Below are positions 11,842 to 45,182 of a stretch of DNA of 64,000 bases, one piece after another. The translations under genes and the position numbers were made by a program. This DNA comes from Candidatus Desulfovibrio intestinavium. Lineage in GTDB: Bacteria > Desulfobacterota > Desulfovibrionia > Desulfovibrionales > Desulfovibrionaceae. The stretch spans positions 1-64,000 of the forward strand of contig DWZD01000047.1 in NCBI GenBank assembly GCA_019118345.1, read 5' to 3'. The stretch's first letter is position 1, and every line of letters begins with the position of its first letter. Under the pieces are notes generated by a model. It ran no database searches and was not told where the DNA came from. It saw only the letters and a list, made by a program, of their open reading frames with translations.

Positions 11842-12288
11842 TTACGGGTTGTGCTGCCTGCCGCTCGCCCCATGAGCGGCGGCTGATTCCCTGGCCTCGT
11901 TCCGCGCCCTGGCGCGGGCCTTCTTGTGCCGGCACTTGCAGTCCGGGCAGGTTCCCCGGCAGACATGCTTGGCGTTTTCGGGCACAATGAGCACCTTGTT
12001 GCCGCCCACGGCCAGTTCAAAGCCCAGCCTGCCCTTGAAGGCAATGCGCTGCATGCCTATCTGGCTGAGGGGCAGCGACGCGCGCAGACTTGCTGCGGCC
12101 TCCTGCTCGAGGCGCGTCACCTGACGCACGTCAATGAAAAAGCGTTTGCAGCTGTCCTTGCGCGCATGCAGAAGCTGCATGATGCCTTCCGCTTGCGGCA
12201 TGTCCAACGTTTGTCCGACGGAAATGTGAAGATTATGGGCGCTTTCCCGGCAGTTGAGCTGCGGGGGGGGTGCAGGATGCGTATGCAT
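11842..12288 (-). CDS. STAS-like hypothetical protein with Cys-rich basic tail (CRGTCPDCKCRHKK)
   Basis: NCRESAHNLHISVGQTLDMPQAEGIMQLLHARKDSCKRFFIDVRQVTRLEQEAAASLRASLPLSQ resembles STAS-like helices/strands; start at MHTHPAP (12288). Confidence 0.55.
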   Translation of the reverse strand: MHTHPAPPPQLNCRESAHNLHISVGQTLDMPQAEGIMQLLHARKDSCKRFFIDVRQVTRLEQEAAASLRASLPLSQIGMQRIAFKGRLGFELAVGGNKVLIVPENAKHVCRGTCPDCKCRHKKARARARNEARESAAAHGASGRQHNP

Positions 12289-12521
12289 GGCTGGCTCCTT
12301 GTCGTCTGCGCCGGCAGTGCCGGAAAGGGCGCTGCCGACTGATACATCGGGCGGGGAGGAGTCTGTGCATGCGGCAAACCGAATACATGATGCCATCCAG
12401 TGACTGAGGTGATGGTGCCAAGGGCCTGCCCGGGCAGCGGCGCTTGCCCTTGCCTGTCGTGGCGTCCGTGGCGAGGCGGTGGAACCTTTCTACGGCAGTG
12501 CGCCGTGAAAGTCAACAGAAA

Positions 12522-12536
12522 TGAAAATTATTTTCA
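12522..12536. promoter_or_regulatory. Fur-box-like 7-1-7 palindrome TGAAAATTATTTTCA
   Basis: Perfect 15-bp palindrome in the intergenic region about 98 bp upstream of the EamA-type transporter. Confidence 0.65.
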
Positions 12537-12633
12537 ATTTCTTTTTTCGGGAGCGGCGGAAATTGACGCGTCCCGCATCCTGCGCTACAGCAATGCCCGC
12601 AGACAAACGGGGAACGGCGATACGGAGTGAAGC

Positions 12634-13623
12634 ATGACACGCACGGACAACAGGCATTTTTACGGACTGCTGGCACTGACGGCGGCCATCTGGGGCTTGC
12701 AGCCCCTTTTCATCAAGCTGGTGGTGGCCGAACTGACGCCGACCACGCTGACCGCCGTCCGTTATGCGATCATTGTCGTGTTTTTTTTCGTCATCGTTTT
12801 TTGGCGGGGCGCTCCCGTGCTGCCGCGCCGGGATTGCCTGCTGCCCCTGATCTGCATGGGGCTGACGGGCGTGGCCTTCAACAATATTGCCCAGTTTTCG
12901 GGCCTGCAATATTCCAGCGTGGGCAATGCCACCCTCATCGGCTCAACGACGCCTGCCTCCACGGCTCTGCTGGCCGCCGTCTTTCTGCGCGAAAAGCTGA
13001 TGCCCATCGAATGGCTGGGCATCCTCTCCTCCCTGCTGGGCACGCTCTTTCTCGTCTCACATGGTTCGCTGGACATGATTCTTTCCCTCTCCTTCAACCG
13101 GGGGGATCTGCTTTTTTTTGCCTGCCAGCAGGGCTGGGCCATTTATTCCCTCATCGGCGTGCGGGTCATGACCCGTCTGTCGGCGCTCACGGCCACAACC
13201 TGGGCGGGAGTGTTCGGGGTGGGCTGGACGGTGCTCTACGGTCTCACCAGTGGGGAATTGCGCCTTGTGCCGGCCTCGACAACCTGCTGGCTGGCCCTGG
13301 GCTATGTGGTTTTTTTGGGCGGCATCTTTGCCATGCTGGCCTGGAATCTTTCCCTCAAGGCCGTCGGCGCGGGCAGGGCGGCCATCTTTCTGAACCTCAT
13401 GCCGCTGGCGGGGGTGACCGCCGGGGTTGTGCTGCTGGATGAACCCTTTGTCTGGCAGCAATGCTTCGGGGCCGTGGGCATGCTGGCCGGCATTTACATT
13501 CTCACCCACAGCCATCAGATCATGCGGTACACCAACCGCCGGCTCCTGCGGCGGGCAAAGGCGCTTTCCCACCTGCGCAGGCCCCGACGGGAACAGCCTG
13601 TGCCGCCGTGGCAGAAGCGCTGA
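12634..13623 (+). CDS. EamA/DMT-superfamily transporter
   Basis: About 10 TM helices, two EamA repeats (ALTAAIWGLQPLFIKLVVAELTPTTLTAVRY). Confidence 0.88.
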   Translation: MTRTDNRHFYGLLALTAAIWGLQPLFIKLVVAELTPTTLTAVRYAIIVVFFFVIVFWRGAPVLPRRDCLLPLICMGLTGVAFNNIAQFSGLQYSSVGNATLIGSTTPASTALLAAVFLREKLMPIEWLGILSSLLGTLFLVSHGSLDMILSLSFNRGDLLFFACQQGWAIYSLIGVRVMTRLSALTATTWAGVFGVGWTVLYGLTSGELRLVPASTTCWLALGYVVFLGGIFAMLAWNLSLKAVGAGRAAIFLNLMPLAGVTAGVVLLDEPFVWQQCFGAVGMLAGIYILTHSHQIMRYTNRRLLRRAKALSHLRRPRREQPVPPWQKR

Positions 13624-13731
13624 AGGATTTTCTTGCGGTCAGCGATTGGCGACGCCATGCCGCAGCGCGGCACGGGGGAGGAGCCGCCTTGTCGTTTCGT
13701 TTTGCGGCCCGGCATGGCGGTTGCGCCAGCC

Positions 13732-13769
13732 TTGACAGCGGGCCTTGCTATGGCTATTTTGCCAAAAAG
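13732..13769 (+). promoter_or_regulatory. Sigma70-like promoter with overlapping TGGC-N6-GCCA operator-like palindrome upstream of arsR-like gene
   Basis: TTGACA, 17-bp spacer, TATTTT; TGGCTATTTTGCCAAAAAG at 13751-13769 overlaps the -10. Confidence 0.65.
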
Positions 13770-13784
13770 ACAATGAGGGCAATC

Positions 13785-14108
13785 ATGCTTCGTCATCACC
13801 AGCTACTTGCCGAGCAGGCAAAGATCTTCAAGGCCCTGGGGCATCCCAGCCGGCTGCTCATGGTGCACGCCCTGCGCGAAGGGGAAAAGTGCGTCTGTGA
13901 CCTGCAGTCCCTCATCGGGGCGGACATGTCCACCGTGTCCCGGCATCTGGCCGTCCTGCGCGAGGCCGGGGTGGTAAAGAGCGAAAAGCGCGGCGTCAAT
14001 ATCTATTATACGCTGGCCATGTGCTGTCTGGACACCTTTCTGGCCTGCACCAGCTCGCTGGTGGAGGGGCGCATCCGGGAAAAGGCGGACTTGCTGGCGG
14101 AGCGCTGA
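13785..14108 (+). CDS. ArsR-family winged-helix transcriptional regulator
   Basis: AKIFKALGHPSRLLMVHALREGEKCVCDLQSLIGADMSTVSRHLAVLREAGVVKSEKRGVNIYYTL is the ArsR HTH with an ECVCDL-like metal-binding segment. Confidence 0.93.
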   Translation: MLRHHQLLAEQAKIFKALGHPSRLLMVHALREGEKCVCDLQSLIGADMSTVSRHLAVLREAGVVKSEKRGVNIYYTLAMCCLDTFLACTSSLVEGRIREKADLLAER

Positions 14109-14130
14109 GCATTTTTTTTCGGCATTTATT

Positions 14131-14149
14131 TGGCTTTTTTGCCAATAAG
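14131..14149 (+). promoter_or_regulatory. Second copy of operator-like palindrome TGGCTTTTTTGCCAATAAG upstream of permease
   Basis: 17/19 identical to 13751-13769; 20 bp upstream of the permease ATG. Confidence 0.6.
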
Positions 14150-14168
14150 CAAAAAATGGGGAATACAC

Positions 14169-15269
14169 ATGGGAAGCTGTTGCAATGGTCATGCGGCCCG
14201 CGCGAGCCGCGCAACGAATCGTCCGACGCCGCTGCGCATGCTGCTTGTCGGCATGGCGGCGGCAGCGCTCTGGACGGCTCTCTATCTGGGCATTGCGCCT
14301 CTGGCCCGCATGCTGACCTATCAGGCAGCCGGACTGGCCGCAGGCTCGCCCGCGGCGGCGGCGCTGGAATTTTTTTTGTATGACACGGCCAAGATTCTGC
14401 TGCTGCTTCTTCTCATGGTCTACGTCATCGGCTGGCTGCGGGCCGGGCTGCGCGTGGAGCGGGTGCGGGACTATCTGTCCGGCAGACGACGTCTGCTGGG
14501 CTATGCCCTGGCCGCTGGCTTCGGCGCGGTGACGCCCTTCTGCTCCTGCTCGAGCATCCCGCTCTTTCTGGGCTTCAGCACGGCGGGCATTCCGCTGGGC
14601 ATCACCCTGGCCTTTCTCATCACCTCGCCGCTGATCAATGAAATCGCCGTGGTGCTGCTCTGGGGCCTGTTGGGCGCAAAGCTGACCATCATCTATGTGC
14701 TGGCCGGACTGGGCGCGGGCATGGCGGGCGGCTGGATCATGGATCGCCTGCATGCGGAACGCTGGCTGCAGCCCTATCTGCTTGAAACGGCCCGCCGCGG
14801 TATGCCGCAGGGGGCCATGAGCGAGCTGAGTCCGCGCCTCACCGCCTACGGGCGTCACTGCTTTGCCCTGCGGGAAACGCGCGACATTTTCCGCCGGGTC
14901 TGGCGCTGGGTCATTCTGGGGGTGGGGCTGGGAGCCGTGCTGCACGGCTATGTGCCGGAAGACTGGTTTGCCCGGCATCTGGGCGCCGGACAATGGTGGT
15001 CCGTGCCCGCTGCCGTGACCGTGGGCATCCCGCTGTATACCAATGTCACCGGCATCGTGCCCGTCATGGAAAGCCTGCTGCTCAAGGGACTGCCCGTGGG
15101 AACGACGCTGGCCTTCTGCATGAGCAGCGTCGGGGCCAGCCTGCCGGAAATCCTCATGTTGCGGCAGGTCATGCGCCCGCCGCTGCTGCTGCTCTTTCTG
15201 GCGACGCTGCTCGTGCTGTTCACCCTGCTGGGCTGGCTGCTCAACAGCATGCAGCTGTGGCTGGCCTGA
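14169..15269 (+). CDS. Permease of the YraQ/ArsP (DUF318) family
   Basis: TPFCSCSSIPLFLGFSTAGIPLGITLAFLITSPLINEIAVVLL signature; N-terminal MGSCCNGH Cys pair. Confidence 0.88.
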   Translation: MGSCCNGHAARASRATNRPTPLRMLLVGMAAAALWTALYLGIAPLARMLTYQAAGLAAGSPAAAALEFFLYDTAKILLLLLLMVYVIGWLRAGLRVERVRDYLSGRRRLLGYALAAGFGAVTPFCSCSSIPLFLGFSTAGIPLGITLAFLITSPLINEIAVVLLWGLLGAKLTIIYVLAGLGAGMAGGWIMDRLHAERWLQPYLLETARRGMPQGAMSELSPRLTAYGRHCFALRETRDIFRRVWRWVILGVGLGAVLHGYVPEDWFARHLGAGQWWSVPAAVTVGIPLYTNVTGIVPVMESLLLKGLPVGTTLAFCMSSVGASLPEILMLRQVMRPPLLLLFLATLLVLFTLLGWLLNSMQLWLA

Positions 15270-38171: not shown

Positions 38172-39647
38172 TTGCGCGCCAATATTCTGTGTGCCGGTCT
38201 GGGGACGCGTCTGCGTCCGCTTACCTATATAAAACCCAAGCCCCTGCTGAGCATCGGCGGCTTCCCGCTGGTGGAGCGCACCATTCGCCAGCTGCGCGCC
38301 GACGGCGTGAGCGACATTGCGCTGGTGGTGGGCTACAAGCGGGAATGTTTCGACTATCTGCAAGAAAAATATGGCGTTCGGCTCATTGTTTCCGAACGCT
38401 ACGACACGGCCAACAACTTTTCCTCGCTGGAACTGGTGGCGGATCGTCTGGGCGACAGCCTGGTCATTGACGGCGATCTTTATATCCGGCGGCCCATTGT
38501 GCCGCTGGTGCGGCCCGGCGTTTCGCAGTTCATCTGCCAGAAGACGCAGCGCGGCACGGAATGGGAACTGCTCACGGATGCGCAGGATCGCGTGGTGGGC
38601 GTGAAAAAGGACTCGCCCGACGGCTATGCCATGTCCGGCATTTCCTACTGGACGGAAGAGGCCGCCGCGCTCCTGCGCGAGGAACTGGCCCGCAGCGGCC
38701 CGGACGACTACTGGGAAGATGCGGCCATCCGCATCCTTGATCGCACGCCGGTCTACGCCGTGCGGACAAAACTCCTGCAATGCGAGATCGACAGCCTTGA
38801 GGATGTGCTCTCCCTCGGCCTGCTTTCGGCGGACGAACTGGCCGACCAATGCTCGGAAACGAGCATGGCCGAAAAGCTCAAGAGCCTGACCAACGATACC
38901 TACCTCATCCGCCTGCACGGCAGGGATGTGGTGTTGCGCATCCCGGGCCGGGGCACGGATCAGATCATCGACCGCAGTCTGGAATCGGCCATGCTGGAGC
39001 TGCTGCGCGGCATGGACATCACGCCGGAATGCACCTTCTATTCCGGCGGCATCAAGACCACGGACTTTTTGCGGGGCTACGGCATCCTGACCCCGGAGAC
39101 GCTGGATGAGGCGACCATCGCCGGCGTGGCGCGGCTCATGGGGCGGCTGCATGCCATTCCCATGCCGCCGGGCTTTGACGCGCTCCACGGCCCCAATGCG
39201 GCCCTGTCCGTCCTCAATGAGGTCAAGCTCTACGAGCGGCAAAGCGGCATCAACCTGCTGGCCGACGAGGAACGCGACCTGCTCTACGACTTTGCCCGCG
39301 AAATGGACAGGGATGAAAAATGCTTCTGTCATCGTGACTTCGTGCTGGAAAATATCCTGCGGCGCGGGGACAGCATGCAGCTCATCGACTTTGAATATGC
39401 CTGCTTCTGTTCCCGCTACTGGGATTACGCCAGCTTCGTGACGGAAACGCGGCTTTCCGACGACCGTCTGGCGTCCTTTGTCCGCACCTGCGGGCTGGAT
39501 GAGCGGCGTCTGCTCAAGGCCGTGATCATCGTGGACTATATCTGGGGCCTGTGGGGCTTTTATCGCGAATGCATCGACTACGGGCGCGGCCGCATTGCGG
39601 AGATGGATCGCAATCTGCGTCGCTATCAGGCCGGAGGCACGTTGTGA
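38172..39647 (+). CDS. LicC-like nucleotidyltransferase fused to LicA/choline-kinase-like kinase
   Basis: ILCAGLGTRLRPLTYIKPKPLL plus CHRDFVLENIL...QLIDFEYA. TTG start at 38172 preceded by GGGAGGGAGA Shine-Dalgarno. Confidence 0.85.
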   Translation: MRANILCAGLGTRLRPLTYIKPKPLLSIGGFPLVERTIRQLRADGVSDIALVVGYKRECFDYLQEKYGVRLIVSERYDTANNFSSLELVADRLGDSLVIDGDLYIRRPIVPLVRPGVSQFICQKTQRGTEWELLTDAQDRVVGVKKDSPDGYAMSGISYWTEEAAALLREELARSGPDDYWEDAAIRILDRTPVYAVRTKLLQCEIDSLEDVLSLGLLSADELADQCSETSMAEKLKSLTNDTYLIRLHGRDVVLRIPGRGTDQIIDRSLESAMLELLRGMDITPECTFYSGGIKTTDFLRGYGILTPETLDEATIAGVARLMGRLHAIPMPPGFDALHGPNAALSVLNEVKLYERQSGINLLADEERDLLYDFAREMDRDEKCFCHRDFVLENILRRGDSMQLIDFEYACFCSRYWDYASFVTETRLSDDRLASFVRTCGLDERRLLKAVIIVDYIWGLWGFYRECIDYGRGRIAEMDRNLRRYQAGGTL

Positions 39648-40993
39648 GCCGCTCCCGCCTTCTCCTGACGGGGCTGTGCCTCTGCCTTCTGCTGGAGGCG
39701 GCCTTTCCCGCCCCCGCGCACGCCTATCTTGACCCCGGCACGGGCAACATCCTTGTTTATGTGGCCATCAGTCTGGTGGGGACGGTTCTCTATTTCCTGA
39801 AAAATCTGGTCTACGCCCTCATGGGGCGCGCCCGGGGCGAACGGGCAGGGGGGCGGGAGCTGCATCATGAGCGCATCCTGATCTTTTCCGAGGGCCGTTC
39901 CTACTTTTATACCTTCAAGCCCATCATCGACGCCCTCTTGCGGCGGGAAATCCCCTTTTCCTACATCACGATGGACATGGAGGATCCGGCCCTGACCATC
40001 GAGAACGATCTCATGGATTCCCGCTACATCGGCAACGGCGCGGCGGCCTATGCCCGCGCGGCAGGCCGTCGGGCGGACGTCATGCTTTCCACCACGCCCA
40101 ACATCGGCACGCCGGGCTTTCCCATGCCGCGTCCGCGCCGGGTGAAATGTCTGGCCCATGTCTGCCACGGCGTGGGAGACATTGCCATGTATCAGAAGGG
40201 ATCGCTTGATCATTACGACGCCGTGCTCATGGTGGGGGATTTCATGCTGCCGAGCATTCGCCGTCTGGAGGAAATGCGCGGCCTGCCCGCCAAGGAATGC
40301 GTGTCCCTCGGCCTGCCCTATCTGGACGAGCTGGCCGCGCGGGCGCACCCCCGGCAGGGGAGAAACGCGCCGCCCGTGGTGCTGGTGGCGCCGTCCTGGG
40401 GCAACAAGGGCTGCCTTTCCGTCTGCGGGCCGCAATTTCTCGTGGATCTGGCCAGGGCCGGCTACGAGGTCATTTTCCGGCCCCATCCGCAATCGCTCAG
40501 GGTGGAAACGGAGATGCTGGCCTCCATCCACGAACTGTTGCGCGACTTCGACAATGTGACCTTTGATACGGACATGGATGCCACGGCCTCCATGAGCCGG
40601 GCCGACGTGATGATTTCCGACAAGTCCTGCGTGCGCTTCGACTTCGCCTTTCTCTACGAACGGCCGGTCATCACCCTGGACATCCCGGTGCGCAATCCCG
40701 AACTCTACGAGGTGGCGGATCTGGGCGTGGTCTGGGAAGATACCGTGGCCGCCCGTCTGGGCGAGGTGGTCGCACCGGAACACTTTGACCGTATTCTGCC
40801 CGCCGTGGAACGGGCGCTGACCATGCCGCCAGCGGCGCTGGCCGCCTTTCGCGACGAATGCGTGGCCTGCTGGGGCCGCAGCGGGGAAGCCATTGCGCAA
40901 TGGACGCTGGACAAGCTGCGGGCTGACGGCGGGCCGTGCGATGAGGGCGATGCCCCTGCCGCCGCGCCGGACGCGGCCCCGGCGCAACGCTAG
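39644..40993 (+). CDS. CDP-glycerol glycerophosphotransferase (TagB/TagF)-like protein with N-terminal membrane segment
   Basis: GTG start overlapping previous stop; AYLDPGTGNILVYVAISLVGTVLYFL; VLVAPSWGNKG...VIFRPHPQSLR...DVMISDKSCVRFDFAFLYERPVITLD. Confidence 0.82.
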   Translation: MSRSRLLLTGLCLCLLLEAAFPAPAHAYLDPGTGNILVYVAISLVGTVLYFLKNLVYALMGRARGERAGGRELHHERILIFSEGRSYFYTFKPIIDALLRREIPFSYITMDMEDPALTIENDLMDSRYIGNGAAAYARAAGRRADVMLSTTPNIGTPGFPMPRPRRVKCLAHVCHGVGDIAMYQKGSLDHYDAVLMVGDFMLPSIRRLEEMRGLPAKECVSLGLPYLDELAARAHPRQGRNAPPVVLVAPSWGNKGCLSVCGPQFLVDLARAGYEVIFRPHPQSLRVETEMLASIHELLRDFDNVTFDTDMDATASMSRADVMISDKSCVRFDFAFLYERPVITLDIPVRNPELYEVADLGVVWEDTVAARLGEVVAPEHFDRILPAVERALTMPPAALAAFRDECVACWGRSGEAIAQWTLDKLRADGGPCDEGDAPAAAPDAAPAQR

Positions 40994-41146
40994 ACCCTGC
41001 GGCGGGCGCGGGAGGACACGGGCTTTTCGGCCTGTCGCGCTCCCGTGCTGAAAAGCATTCCGCGTCGGCGCGACCCCTGCGCGGGCCGCAAGCCGCCGCA
41101 CAGCTTCGCGGCCTGACGCGCCGCGCCCTTTGGAGACAAGACGTCC

Positions 41147-43687
41147 ATGATGTCGCTACTGTACGAAATATTCATCCTGCCCATCGAAATCATCTATCGC
41201 GCCATTTACCTCGGCAGCGTGCAGCTCACCGGCAATTACGGCCTGAGCATCCTTGTGCTGTCCGCGGTCAGCGCCGTGGCCTTCATACCGCTGGGCCGTC
41301 TGGCCGTGGGCATGCAGGCCGGGGAAAAGAAGGTGCAGCAGATCATGGCCCCGCAGCTGGCCCGCATCCGCAGCGAGTCCAGGGGGGCTGAGCGTCAGCG
41401 CCGCATCAACAAGCTCTACCGGCGTTATGCCTATCACCCGCTGCTGGCCATTCGCTCGGCCTTTGGCGTTGCCCTGCAGATTCCCTTCCTGACCGGGGCC
41501 TACTACATGATTCTGAGCCTGGATCAGCTGCAGGGCCAGTCCTTCCTCTGCATTGCCGATCTCTCGCGGCCCGACGGCCTGCTGTGGGGCGTGAATTTCC
41601 TGCCCATTCTCATGACCGTGGTGAACATCACCGCCACCTTCACCACGCCGGGCTTGAGCCGCAAGGACAGACTGCAGGCCGTGATCATCGCCTTCTTCTT
41701 CCTGCTCCTGCTCTACGGCGCGGCCTCGGCCCTGCTCATCTTCTGGACCATGAACAACGTCTTCTTCCTGCTCCAGAATCTGCGCCTGCCGGTGAAGCTG
41801 CCGCGCTTCCGCAAGCCCGTCTTTGCCCAGGGCGCCATGAGCACGGCCACGGGCAGCCTGTTGCGCTCCGTCTATGCCCTGTCCTGCGCGGGTCTTGCGG
41901 CCCTGCTCTTTCTCTATGTGCCCTTTCAGGCCTATGCCTCGGATCCGGCCTTCTTCGCCAGCGGGGCGCTGGACGTGCTGCTGGGCATGGTGCGCTATCT
42001 CTCGCTGACCTTCTTCATCGTCTTTGTGCTCTGGCTCTGGTTTCCGGCGCGGGGCAAGGTCATCCCGGCCTTTGTGGCCTTCTGCGCCCTCTGCGTGGCC
42101 TTTGTGAACGTCTTTGTCCTGCCGGCGGATTTCGGCGCGCTGGACGGCACCCGTTTTCTGGATGAGGCCCGCATCGGGCGGCCCATGCGGCTTTTGAGCG
42201 ACGCCCTGCTGCCTGTCATCGGCGGCATGGCCGTGGCCTCGCTGTGCTTCGCCCTTGTGCGGGTGCGCCGCGTGCTGCCGCAGGCGCTCGCCATCGCGCT
42301 CTTTTCCCTGCTGGTGCTGTCGGGCTACGCGGGGCTGACCGCGCCGGGCGCGGTCAAGGAGGAGAGCGCCTTCACACCGCCGCCCTATGCGCGGGCCATG
42401 CAGTCCTATTCCCGCCATGATGAAAACGTCATCGTGGTCATCATGGACATGTTCACCGGCGGCCATGTGGAAAAGATGCTGGATGATCCGTGGTTCGAGG
42501 ATTTCCGTGCCGGCATGGACGGTTTTGTCTGGTATCCCGATACGGTATCCATGGCCGACGCCACGGTGCTGAGCCTGCCCAGCATCTACGGCGGGCACGG
42601 CTACAGCCCGGCAGCCACCAATGCACGCCGTTCCCTGACCCTGGAAGAGAACATCAACAAGGCCTTTGCCCTCATGCCGCGCAATTTCGCGGCCCATGAC
42701 TACGATGTGACCATCGTCAACGGTCTGGACTACTTCAATGAGGAGCTGTACGCCCGCCACGGCGGCGCGGCCGACAACATCCTCACCGTGCCGCGCGTGC
42801 GCCGCACCTTCCTGCGCAAGTATTACGACGACGTGAGCCTGCGGGACTTCAGCAGCTTCTTTGCCATGCTGGGCCTGTTCCAGGCCGTGCCGGACATGTT
42901 CCGGCAAAAGCTCTACGATGACGGCAACTGGAAGAATGCCGGGGACGGCATCCTGGCCGCCAGCATGGATTATTACAAGGAGGAGGACGCCTGGTTCCGC
43001 TATGTCTTCACCTCCGGCATCACGGCGGATGCCCCGCGCGGCACGGCCAAGATCTTCTATACCATGCTGTCGCATTACATGTGGCACTATGCGCCGGATC
43101 TCGCGGACGGCGCGCCCCGCATCGTGGCCGATCCCTGCCCGGAGACCGAAGGCCAGCTCATCCACAAGGGCGGCGTCCTGCCGGAACACTATTATGCGGA
43201 ACGCCACCTCATGCGCTATCTCCTGATTTTTTTCCGGCAGCTCAAGGAAGCGGGCGTGTACGACAATTCGCGCATCATCCTTGTCTCCGATCACGGCGAA
43301 CGCGACAGTCAGATGGTGGCCCGCGCCTACAACGAAGGCCGGGAATTTGCCGACGGCGTACCCTACGGCAGCGGTCGGTACGCGCCGGGACGGCCCCATG
43401 CCCTGCTCATGGTCAAGGAGCCGGGCGCGCGCGGCCCGTTGCGCATCAATGAGGCCTTCATGTCCAGCGCCGACGTGCCGCTGCTGGCCCTCAAGGGCAT
43501 CGGCGCCTGCGACGAGTTCGAACTCTACGATCCGGCCCGCGCGCCGAAGCCGCGCGTCCTCACCCATGCCCGGGGCGGGGCGCGCTGGAGCGAACACGGC
43601 GAAAAGGCCTATATCTATGAGCAGCACCGGCTGGAGGGGACGCTCTTTGATCCGGCCAAAAACACCTATGACGGGGATTATGATTAG
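41147..43687 (+). CDS. YidC/Oxa1-like membrane insertase domain fused to alkaline-phosphatase-superfamily (sulfatase / phosphoalcohol-transferase-like) domain
   Basis: N-terminal YidC pattern NYGLSILVLSAVSAVAFIPL...YRRYAYHPLLAIRSAFGVALQIPFLTGAYYMI...FLCIADLSRPD...FWTMNNVFFLLQNL; C-terminal NVIVVIMDMFTGGH...DNSRIILVSDHGERD. Confidence 0.85.
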   Translation: MMSLLYEIFILPIEIIYRAIYLGSVQLTGNYGLSILVLSAVSAVAFIPLGRLAVGMQAGEKKVQQIMAPQLARIRSESRGAERQRRINKLYRRYAYHPLLAIRSAFGVALQIPFLTGAYYMILSLDQLQGQSFLCIADLSRPDGLLWGVNFLPILMTVVNITATFTTPGLSRKDRLQAVIIAFFFLLLLYGAASALLIFWTMNNVFFLLQNLRLPVKLPRFRKPVFAQGAMSTATGSLLRSVYALSCAGLAALLFLYVPFQAYASDPAFFASGALDVLLGMVRYLSLTFFIVFVLWLWFPARGKVIPAFVAFCALCVAFVNVFVLPADFGALDGTRFLDEARIGRPMRLLSDALLPVIGGMAVASLCFALVRVRRVLPQALAIALFSLLVLSGYAGLTAPGAVKEESAFTPPPYARAMQSYSRHDENVIVVIMDMFTGGHVEKMLDDPWFEDFRAGMDGFVWYPDTVSMADATVLSLPSIYGGHGYSPAATNARRSLTLEENINKAFALMPRNFAAHDYDVTIVNGLDYFNEELYARHGGAADNILTVPRVRRTFLRKYYDDVSLRDFSSFFAMLGLFQAVPDMFRQKLYDDGNWKNAGDGILAASMDYYKEEDAWFRYVFTSGITADAPRGTAKIFYTMLSHYMWHYAPDLADGAPRIVADPCPETEGQLIHKGGVLPEHYYAERHLMRYLLIFFRQLKEAGVYDNSRIILVSDHGERDSQMVARAYNEGREFADGVPYGSGRYAPGRPHALLMVKEPGARGPLRINEAFMSSADVPLLALKGIGACDEFELYDPARAPKPRVLTHARGGARWSEHGEKAYIYEQHRLEGTLFDPAKNTYDGDYD

Positions 43688-43801
43688 ACAGGGGCTGGCC
43701 TGCCCCGCCGAAGCGCTCATGCCGTCGGCAACACGGGGCTGCCTGCCGTCCGCGCCGCAAGAAACCGCCACAAGGGGCGATGCACATCCCGGGGGAACCA
43801 T

Positions 43802-44890
43802 ATGGAAGCATTGACAGCAATGACGGGCCATCCGGCCGCGACGACCGCCCGCAACCGGCTCTTTCGCCGGTATCGGGCCTGGGGCATTACGGTAGCCGTG
43901 CTTTCCGGCATGTCCTATGGCCTGTATTCGGCCTTCATGACTCTGGGCATGGGCCTCGGCGTCTGGAAAGGCTGGTACGGGGAGGCTTCCGGCCTCTCGG
44001 CCTTTGCGACGCTCTTTCTGCTGAGCGCGCTGGGGGCGGCGGTGACGGACTGCTGCAGTGCGGTCTGGGCCGTCCTGCTGGCCGCGCTCAAGGGCAAGCT
44101 CGGCGACGTGCCGCGCAGCTGGAAAACACGGCCCGGCCTGATCATGACCGTGGCCGCCTTCATCGGCGGGCCGCTGGCCAGCACCTGCTATGTGCTGGGC
44201 CTGCAGAACGCCGGCTCGGTGGTGGTGCCCCTGAGCGCCCTGTGTCCGGCCATCGGGGCCATTCTGGGCCGGGTGGTGTTCAGGCAGATGCTCAATGTGC
44301 GGATCATGGCGGGCATTCTCATCTGCTTTGCCGCCAGCTTCATGATCGGCAGCACGGGACTCACCGGGGAAGCGCCCGCCAATCTGTATCTGGGGCTGGC
44401 CTTCGGCCTGCTGGCCGCTCTGGGCTGGGGCATAGAGGGCTGCGTTTGCGGCTACGGCACGGCGCTCATTGATCCCGAGGTGGGCATCACCATCCGGCAG
44501 ATCACCTCCGGCCTGTCCAATCTCATCCTGCTGGTGCCGCTTTTCGGCTGGATCGGCGGGGCGGATGCGCTGAACATGGCCTGCGCCGCCTTTGCGGACG
44601 GCCATTCCATAGGCTGGTTCGTTCTGGCCGGTTTTTGCGCCTATTTTGCCTTCATGCTCTGGTATCAGGGCAACGCCATGTGCGGGGCCGCGCTGGGCAT
44701 GGCCTGCAACGGGGCCTTCTCCTTCTGGGGGCCGTTCTTCATCTGGCTGGTGCTGGGGGTGGGCTACGGCATGGAAGGCAAGAACATGCCGCCCATCGCC
44801 TGGCTGGCCTCGCTGGTCATGGTCTGCGGCATTTTCCTCATTGCCGTGAATCCGTTGCAGCTGTTCCGCCGCGAAGGGGAAGGGAGGTAG
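43802..44890 (+). CDS. DMT-superfamily (EamA-like) 10-TM transporter
   Basis: GITVAVLSGMSYGLYSAFMTLGMG; LQNAGSVVVPLSALCPAIGAILGRVVFRQMLN repeat pattern. Confidence 0.8.
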   Translation: MEALTAMTGHPAATTARNRLFRRYRAWGITVAVLSGMSYGLYSAFMTLGMGLGVWKGWYGEASGLSAFATLFLLSALGAAVTDCCSAVWAVLLAALKGKLGDVPRSWKTRPGLIMTVAAFIGGPLASTCYVLGLQNAGSVVVPLSALCPAIGAILGRVVFRQMLNVRIMAGILICFAASFMIGSTGLTGEAPANLYLGLAFGLLAALGWGIEGCVCGYGTALIDPEVGITIRQITSGLSNLILLVPLFGWIGGADALNMACAAFADGHSIGWFVLAGFCAYFAFMLWYQGNAMCGAALGMACNGAFSFWGPFFIWLVLGVGYGMEGKNMPPIAWLASLVMVCGIFLIAVNPLQLFRREGEGR

Positions 44891-44894
44891 GCCC

Positions 44895-45182
44895 ATGAAG
44901 CCGCTCAATTTTGCCATTCTGGATTACATGACCACCGTGCCCGAAGCCTGCGCCGAGGAGGTGGTGGCCGCGTTGCGCCCGGCATACGGTTCCTTTCGGG
45001 CGCTGAACGTGAAAGCCGTGCGCACGGCCCTGCTCACGGCCACGGTCAACGGCCTGTTGGAGGAAAGCCGCTGCGAACTGGACGAGGCGCAAAACCTGCG
45101 TCTCTACTTCCGCGCTCATCCCGAGGGGGCGGCCACCATCGTCAAATATACCGGCGGGCCGCTCTCCCGCCCCGTGGACTGA
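44895..45182 (+). CDS. Small conserved-looking hypothetical protein (95 aa)
   Basis: ATG 5 bp after preceding stop, GGGAGG SD-like region; soluble alpha/beta-like composition. Confidence 0.6.
   Translation: MKPLNFAILDYMTTVPEACAEEVVAALRPAYGSFRALNVKAVRTALLTATVNGLLEESRCELDEAQNLRLYFRAHPEGAATIVKYTGGPLSRPVD

Follow-up and report, generated by a model that had tools for sequence, protein, structure and literature searches.

Several described systems resemble parts of the locus studied here, which lies in a 64,000-nucleotide stretch (the window) of the 2.53-Mb, 99.98%-complete genome of a sulfate-reducing gut bacterium of the Desulfovibrio group. The lic1 loci of Haemophilus and Streptococcus (LicA, LicB, LicC and LicD) share with it the predicted LicA and LicC activities and their motifs, the choline cage and CDP-choline as the likely donor, whereas here LicC and LicA are fused, the genome has no LicD, the output appears to consist of a TagF-like protein and a fusion of YidC-like and alkaline-phosphatase-superfamily domains (YidC::AP), and the transporter next to them has no sequence match to solved LicB. 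The AP-superfamily proteins EptA/MCR-1, LtaS and PptA likewise have a nucleophilic Thr, a set of metal-binding Asp/His residues and transmembrane helices that precede a periplasmic domain; unlike them, the AP protein of this locus bears an N-terminal YidC-like domain, is genetically linked to a TagF-like protein and to an enzyme that forms CDP-alcohols, and scores below the Pfam Sulfatase cut-off. The pilin phosphocholine transferase PptA demonstrates that the AP superfamily can transfer phosphocholine (PMC10434233). With TagF, TarL and Cps3D (PF04464) the locus shares a protein of GT-B fold with His/His-Pro/Ser-Asp motifs, TagF being the best structural match, but this protein has a two-helix YLDPGTG anchor, a single catalytic domain and a constant YidC::AP partner. 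Finally, phosphonyl tailoring (Ppm/Ppd/AEPT/PntC) also relies on nucleotide activation of a small surface head group, and relatives carry the TagF-like and YidC::AP genes inside such clusters; the window instead relies on licCA, and PEP mutase is absent. The steps that follow nucleotide activation in surface phosphonate tailoring were called unknown by Rice et al. in 2019 (PMC6697681), and the two proteins described here, with their conserved catalytic residues, are candidates for them.

The main result of this analysis is that the TagF-like and YidC::AP proteins form a reusable output module with swapped supply genes. The pair is apparently new as far as open-access papers show: searches of open-access full text, where annotation names could hide a mention, turned up no paper linking YidC with LicD, with phosphonate cytidylyltransferases or with the fusion described here. 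As judged from sequence, the cassette in the window probably decorates an envelope molecule with phosphocholine (phosphoethanolamine being the less likely head group) and does so in the absence of LicD, the same pair being used elsewhere with CDP-2-aminoethylphosphonate-type donors. A more tentative possibility, somewhat short of an even chance, is that the pair is a general machine that loads a membrane carrier from a CDP donor, the cargo being a phospho- or phosphono-alcohol, takes it over the inner membrane via a repurposed YidC fold and attaches it to surface molecules; many pathways for phosphonate tailoring or for LicD-less phosphocholine decoration would thereby gain their missing output step.

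A three-gene cassette and its activation enzyme

The first-pass annotation had listed five genes on one strand, the first two overlapping, and all five were found on the forward strand. They encode a LicC-LicA fusion (licCA, 38172..39647, TTG start), with a LicC-type cytidylyltransferase in residues 1-215 and a LicA-type choline kinase in residues 223-491; a TagF-like GT-B phosphotransferase (39644..40993); a fusion of YidC-like and AP-superfamily domains (41147..43687); a DMT/EamA transporter that is a candidate choline importer (43802..44890); and a family-less protein of 95 amino acids (44895..45182). The longest open reading frame of the tagF-like gene begins at 39551, but GTG at 39644 is the likelier start, because it gives a 4-bp overlap (GTGA) with the licCA stop, as in a relative (L035) where ATGA overlaps join licCA to tagF and tagF to yidC-AP. 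Both fusions proved real, LicC-LicA by PDB and Pfam matches and YidC::AP as 846 amino acids in one frame.

The earlier reading of all five genes as one conserved cassette held for the first three only. The genes licCA, tagF-like and yidC::AP are kept together in the clade of the window and in D. piger, and the same order is seen again in about ten relatives and also at greater evolutionary distance, so that chance association can be set aside. The transporter and 95-aa genes are not kept with them; they form a separate pair, present in 31 of 79 genomes of the genus, mostly without the cassette, and are sited elsewhere in the D. piger genomes, and the cassette is therefore taken as three genes. 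No match for plasmid or phage carriage of the cassette was obtained, and neither RNA elements nor tRNAs occur near it.

In LicCA, residues 2-215 match the solved LicC (PDB 1jyk, E 1e-33; 120 bits, vs 48 bits to the NTP-transferase/aminotransferase 6pd1), and residues 223-468 match a solved LicA-type choline kinase (PDB 4r77, E 8e-15), the kinase part scoring 66.5 bits against PF01633 with a cut-off of 29. In pneumococcal LicA the choline cage is formed by Tyr197, Glu213, Trp251 and Trp254 (PMC4364537). The catalytic and cage residues of LicA correspond to D389, N394, D406, Y409, E425, W458 and W461 of LicCA, among which the catalytic Asp/Asn and the cage are conserved as D389, N394, Y409, E425, W458 and W461. 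The proposal that the pair makes a CDP-alcohol would have been undermined by a kinase or cytidylyltransferase stripped of catalytic residues; instead, both the LicC and the choline-kinase motifs are intact, and LicCA is predicted to make CDP-choline, possibly CDP-ethanolamine. The reported lack of LicD extends from the locus to the whole genome, in which no PF04991 match was found.

In Treponema denticola a licCA fusion serves lipid synthesis, which lends some colour to a phosphatidylcholine route here, with a CDP-choline pathway ending in a CPT-type enzyme and the TagF-like and YidC::AP proteins as unrelated neighbours. This route is extremely improbable, given that linkage of the three genes extends across genera and that the only PF01066 CDP-alcohol phosphatidyltransferases in the window genome are PgsA and PssA; a phosphatidylcholine pathway was discarded for the window organism on this absence of a CPT-type enzyme (CDP-choline:diacylglycerol cholinephosphotransferase). 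De novo phosphonate synthesis in the same organism was likewise rejected, as PEP mutase is absent from its genome.

The TagF-like and YidC::AP proteins

The presence of a TagF-like protein, as first annotated, is borne out by a PF04464 score of 23.5 bits (cut-off 22.1, with some relatives falling under it), by matches of its family profile to Cps3D, TagF and TarL in the PDB, and by a structure model of GT-B fold (pLDDT 86) whose best structural match is TagF (3l7l, E 9e-12). Its catalytic motifs are intact: H175, H281-P282 and S328 are invariant in 19 members and S325 is nearly so (numbering from the 39644 start). The protein is anchored by two membrane helices with a periplasmic YLDPGTG loop between them, and positive charges after helix 2 place the enzyme domain in the cytosol. 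No sign of polymer synthesis supports its description as a polymerase; with YidC::AP as its partner, it may do no more than load a carrier. Family resemblance to TagF, TarL and LtaS would suit a teichoic-acid-like polymer, with phospho-alcohol units joined by the TagF-like protein and an LtaS-like role for the AP domain. From the supply genes, however, the expected head groups are choline, ethanolamine and 2-aminoethylphosphonate (AEP); none of them keeps a free hydroxyl once transferred, so a poly(alcohol phosphate) backbone would require a further unit, which makes such a polymer highly improbable.

The fusion protein, found at full length in seven relatives (73-91% identity), consists of a YidC-like domain (residues 1-212), five extra transmembrane helices (about 233-398) and a periplasmic AP-superfamily domain (about 420-846), the latter two recognised from hydropathy and a structure model (pLDDT 84.5). 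The model matches the folds of PbgA, EptA, LtaS, MCR-1 and sulfatases, and because these span PbgA, EptA, MCR-1, LtaS and sulfatases alike, fold alone leaves the reaction unfixed. By profile, the AP domain matches MCR-1 (6e-8) and LtaS (4e-7), and it has the Thr nucleophile, the metal-binding Asp/His residues and the overall fold of EptA and LtaS: Thr473 aligns with the nucleophile region of MCR-1 and Asp715-His716 with its SDHGE motif, while D434, T473, H643, D715 and H716 are invariant in 23 diverse members. Against PF00884 (Sulfatase) the domain gave 15.4 and 17.1 bits, under the cut-off of 25; besides YidC::AP, one very weak stretch was the only other sign of this family in the window genome, and neither exceeds the cut-off.

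These residues bear on whether one transferase would suffice. Acting in the cytosol on a glycan precursor linked to a lipid, the TagF-like protein alone could stand in for LicD, as its catalytic residues are intact and its relatives Cps3D and TarL use CDP-alcohols directly on glycans; YidC::AP would then serve another step of the same pathway, such as export or trimming of the product. This arrangement is unlikely, though it deserves some weight: YidC::AP equals the TagF-like protein in conservation and in tightness of linkage, and together with its invariant EptA-type active site this suggests that YidC::AP is a second transferase.

The YidC domain departs from its housekeeping counterparts in the groove. 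The first 212 residues of the fusion carry the 60KD_IMP domain (62.7 bits, cut-off 35) and the fold of YidC/Oxa1 proteins, including the cytosolic hairpin. Strict conservation of the basic groove residue throughout the YidC homologues has been reported (PMC8920935), and the housekeeping YidC of the window genome and those of 15 relatives all have Lys there. None of 24 aligned YidC::AP proteins has Arg or Lys at this position (16 have Asn, 4 Ala, the rest others), the window protein having Ala at position 43. E. coli YidC can do without the groove Arg provided that a hydrophilic or aromatic residue stands at position 517; Trp200 of the window fusion lies near the place of residue 517. Loss of the groove charge, which the first-pass annotation missed, is good evidence, short of proof, for a changed role of the YidC domain: the E. 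coli protein withstands removal of the Arg in some contexts, and in view of Trp200 the domain may still act as an insertase. Its dedicated role might in particular be to insert the TagF-like anchor or the AP domain, with no part in head-group handling, as the retained fold and hairpin and the nearby Trp200 would allow; this is improbable given the uniform loss of the groove charge and the presence of a housekeeping YidC that should suffice, and it would alter only the membrane-passage step of the pathway set out below, with which it is otherwise compatible. A YidC fold that lacks its hallmark groove charge and is fused to a transferase bears on the wider abilities of the YidC superfamily.

The locus thus appears to combine a potential for CDP-choline synthesis, a membrane transferase of CDP-alcohol type and a periplasmic AP-type transferase that are genetically tied, and a carrier-based pathway through them is plausible. 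LicCA is strongly predicted to phosphorylate choline and make CDP-choline in the cytosol. With CDP-choline as donor, the TagF-like enzyme would then transfer phosphocholine at the inner leaflet to a lipid carrier or some membrane-bound acceptor, and, more speculatively, the YidC-like domain might provide a dock, or a passage through thinned membrane, by which the loaded carrier reaches the outer face. The AP domain, to judge from its invariant residues and modelled on the handling of phosphoethanolamine by EptA/MCR-1, would unload the carrier by taking the head group onto Thr473 and hand it to a lipopolysaccharide, glycan or protein acceptor; it could also act on something other than a carrier-borne head group. 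The earlier proposal that the locus takes up and activates an amino-alcohol and attaches it to the envelope is thereby supported for activation and for attachment without LicD, while the uptake gene falls outside the conserved unit. Surface phosphocholine is predicted for Desulfovibrio piger, a cultured gut species, with a bearing on host recognition and on choline use in the gut.

Distribution of the output module and its supply genes

The TagF-like/YidC::AP module was identified in Desulfovibrionaceae, Photobacterium, Spirochaetota and Bacillota, which answers the call for co-occurrence in other phyla; a Gastranaerophilales MAG contig (L062) may be mis-binned and was left out as evidence for another phylum. 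A scan of the collection gave 32 loci. Across the loci with complete flanks, nearly all have the TagF-like gene next to yidC::AP, in either gene order. Trees of the two proteins largely agree and share their main groups, and the supply label requires 5-6 changes on them. The sister loci L059 and L061 carry unlike supply modules, and one genome (G178) has one licCA version and one AEP-import version.

What all supply modules have in common is a small head group, a phospho- or phosphono-alcohol, that they synthesise or import. LicCA is the supply in the window and its relatives, and elsewhere HTH-licCA occurs with an SSS symporter (L041) or with EutH on another contig (L121, in a genome with tandem YidC::AP), and LicC with BCCT (L109). 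Supply of the cytidylyltransferase type is mostly paired with a 2-aminoethylphosphonate importer, as in L050 (Photobacterium), L108, L113 and L115, where a TagD-like cytidylyltransferase accompanies PhnS2/PhnT2/PhnU2. PEP mutase occurs with the module in L064, L073 and L134, phosphonopyruvate decarboxylase alongside, and L134 also has an AEP aminotransferase (418 bits, cut-off 361). This sharing of the pair with phosphonate pathways was missed by the first-pass annotation. Its placing of the TagF-like protein and a membrane AP protein in the position of LicD agrees with their intact catalytic residues and their linkage to activation enzymes, apart from a few YidC::AP copies with no nearby supply gene (L118, L119 and L055).

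The association was also counted across genomes of the class, in three scans that drew slightly different samples (349, 346 and 343 genomes). Any AP match was obtained in 43 of 349 genomes, and 26 were counted as YidC::AP carriers, comprising 25 strong matches and G070, whose copy is cut at a contig end. Full-length LicCA is present in 15 of 346 genomes, 14 of which carry the module, and a specific cytidylyltransferase in 11 of 343, with the module in 10. A supply enzyme was thus found in 24 of 26 module genomes vs 3 of about 320 others (Fisher p 1.5e-31, a value that ignores relatedness); for that reason, the independent lineages and the supply swaps are a stronger argument than the p-value.

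Several individual loci depart from the common arrangement. A complete 2-aminoethylphosphonate synthesis set is interleaved with the TagF-like and YidC::AP genes in a Lachnospiraceae locus (L134, 4669-13485). In L106 the supply is a nucleotidyltransferase::aminotransferase fusion with an aminotransferase part of class I/II (CobD-like), beside an octopine-dehydrogenase-like gene and next to the module (12029-15162), possibly indicating a different head group. The sole LicCA genome without YidC::AP (G152) has, directly before licCA, a gene for a 439-aa protein with no Pfam or NCBIfam match (L110, 637-1956), which may be another output enzyme. A Solobacterium MAG (L074, 4353-13075) encodes LicA, LicC, a YidC::TagF fusion of 698 aa whose groove keeps Lys, and a separate AP protein, with LicD adjoining. 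Treponema putidum (L063, 416-16925) has a tandem array of about five YidC/AP copies, several split into separate frames, and two TagF-like genes, with a PEP mutase/PPD/nucleotidyltransferase-aminotransferase cluster about 37 kb upstream. Phase variation was considered for the broken copies and not adopted, a clear homopolymer tract being absent from the breaks.

The transporter and the 95-aa protein

The DMT protein scores 28.1 bits against EamA, just below the cut-off of 28.2, and its identification as LicB by sequence found no support, as neither sequence nor profile comparison matched it to solved LicB in the PDB. In 9 genomes its gene lies within about 3 kb of a gene for CutC (TIGR04394, 1656 bits, cut-off 1050), and this vicinity of a choline TMA-lyase makes the transporter a candidate choline importer of wider use; together with its small partner, and with no obligate tie to the cassette, it may import choline. 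The 95-aa gene is conserved and adjoins the transporter gene in every locus checked, its product having no Pfam or NCBIfam match. In two relatives (L139 and L140) the pair stands beside genes for a BMC shell protein, acetaldehyde dehydrogenase and CutC, and the 95-aa protein is a candidate small partner of the choline TMA-lyase cluster.
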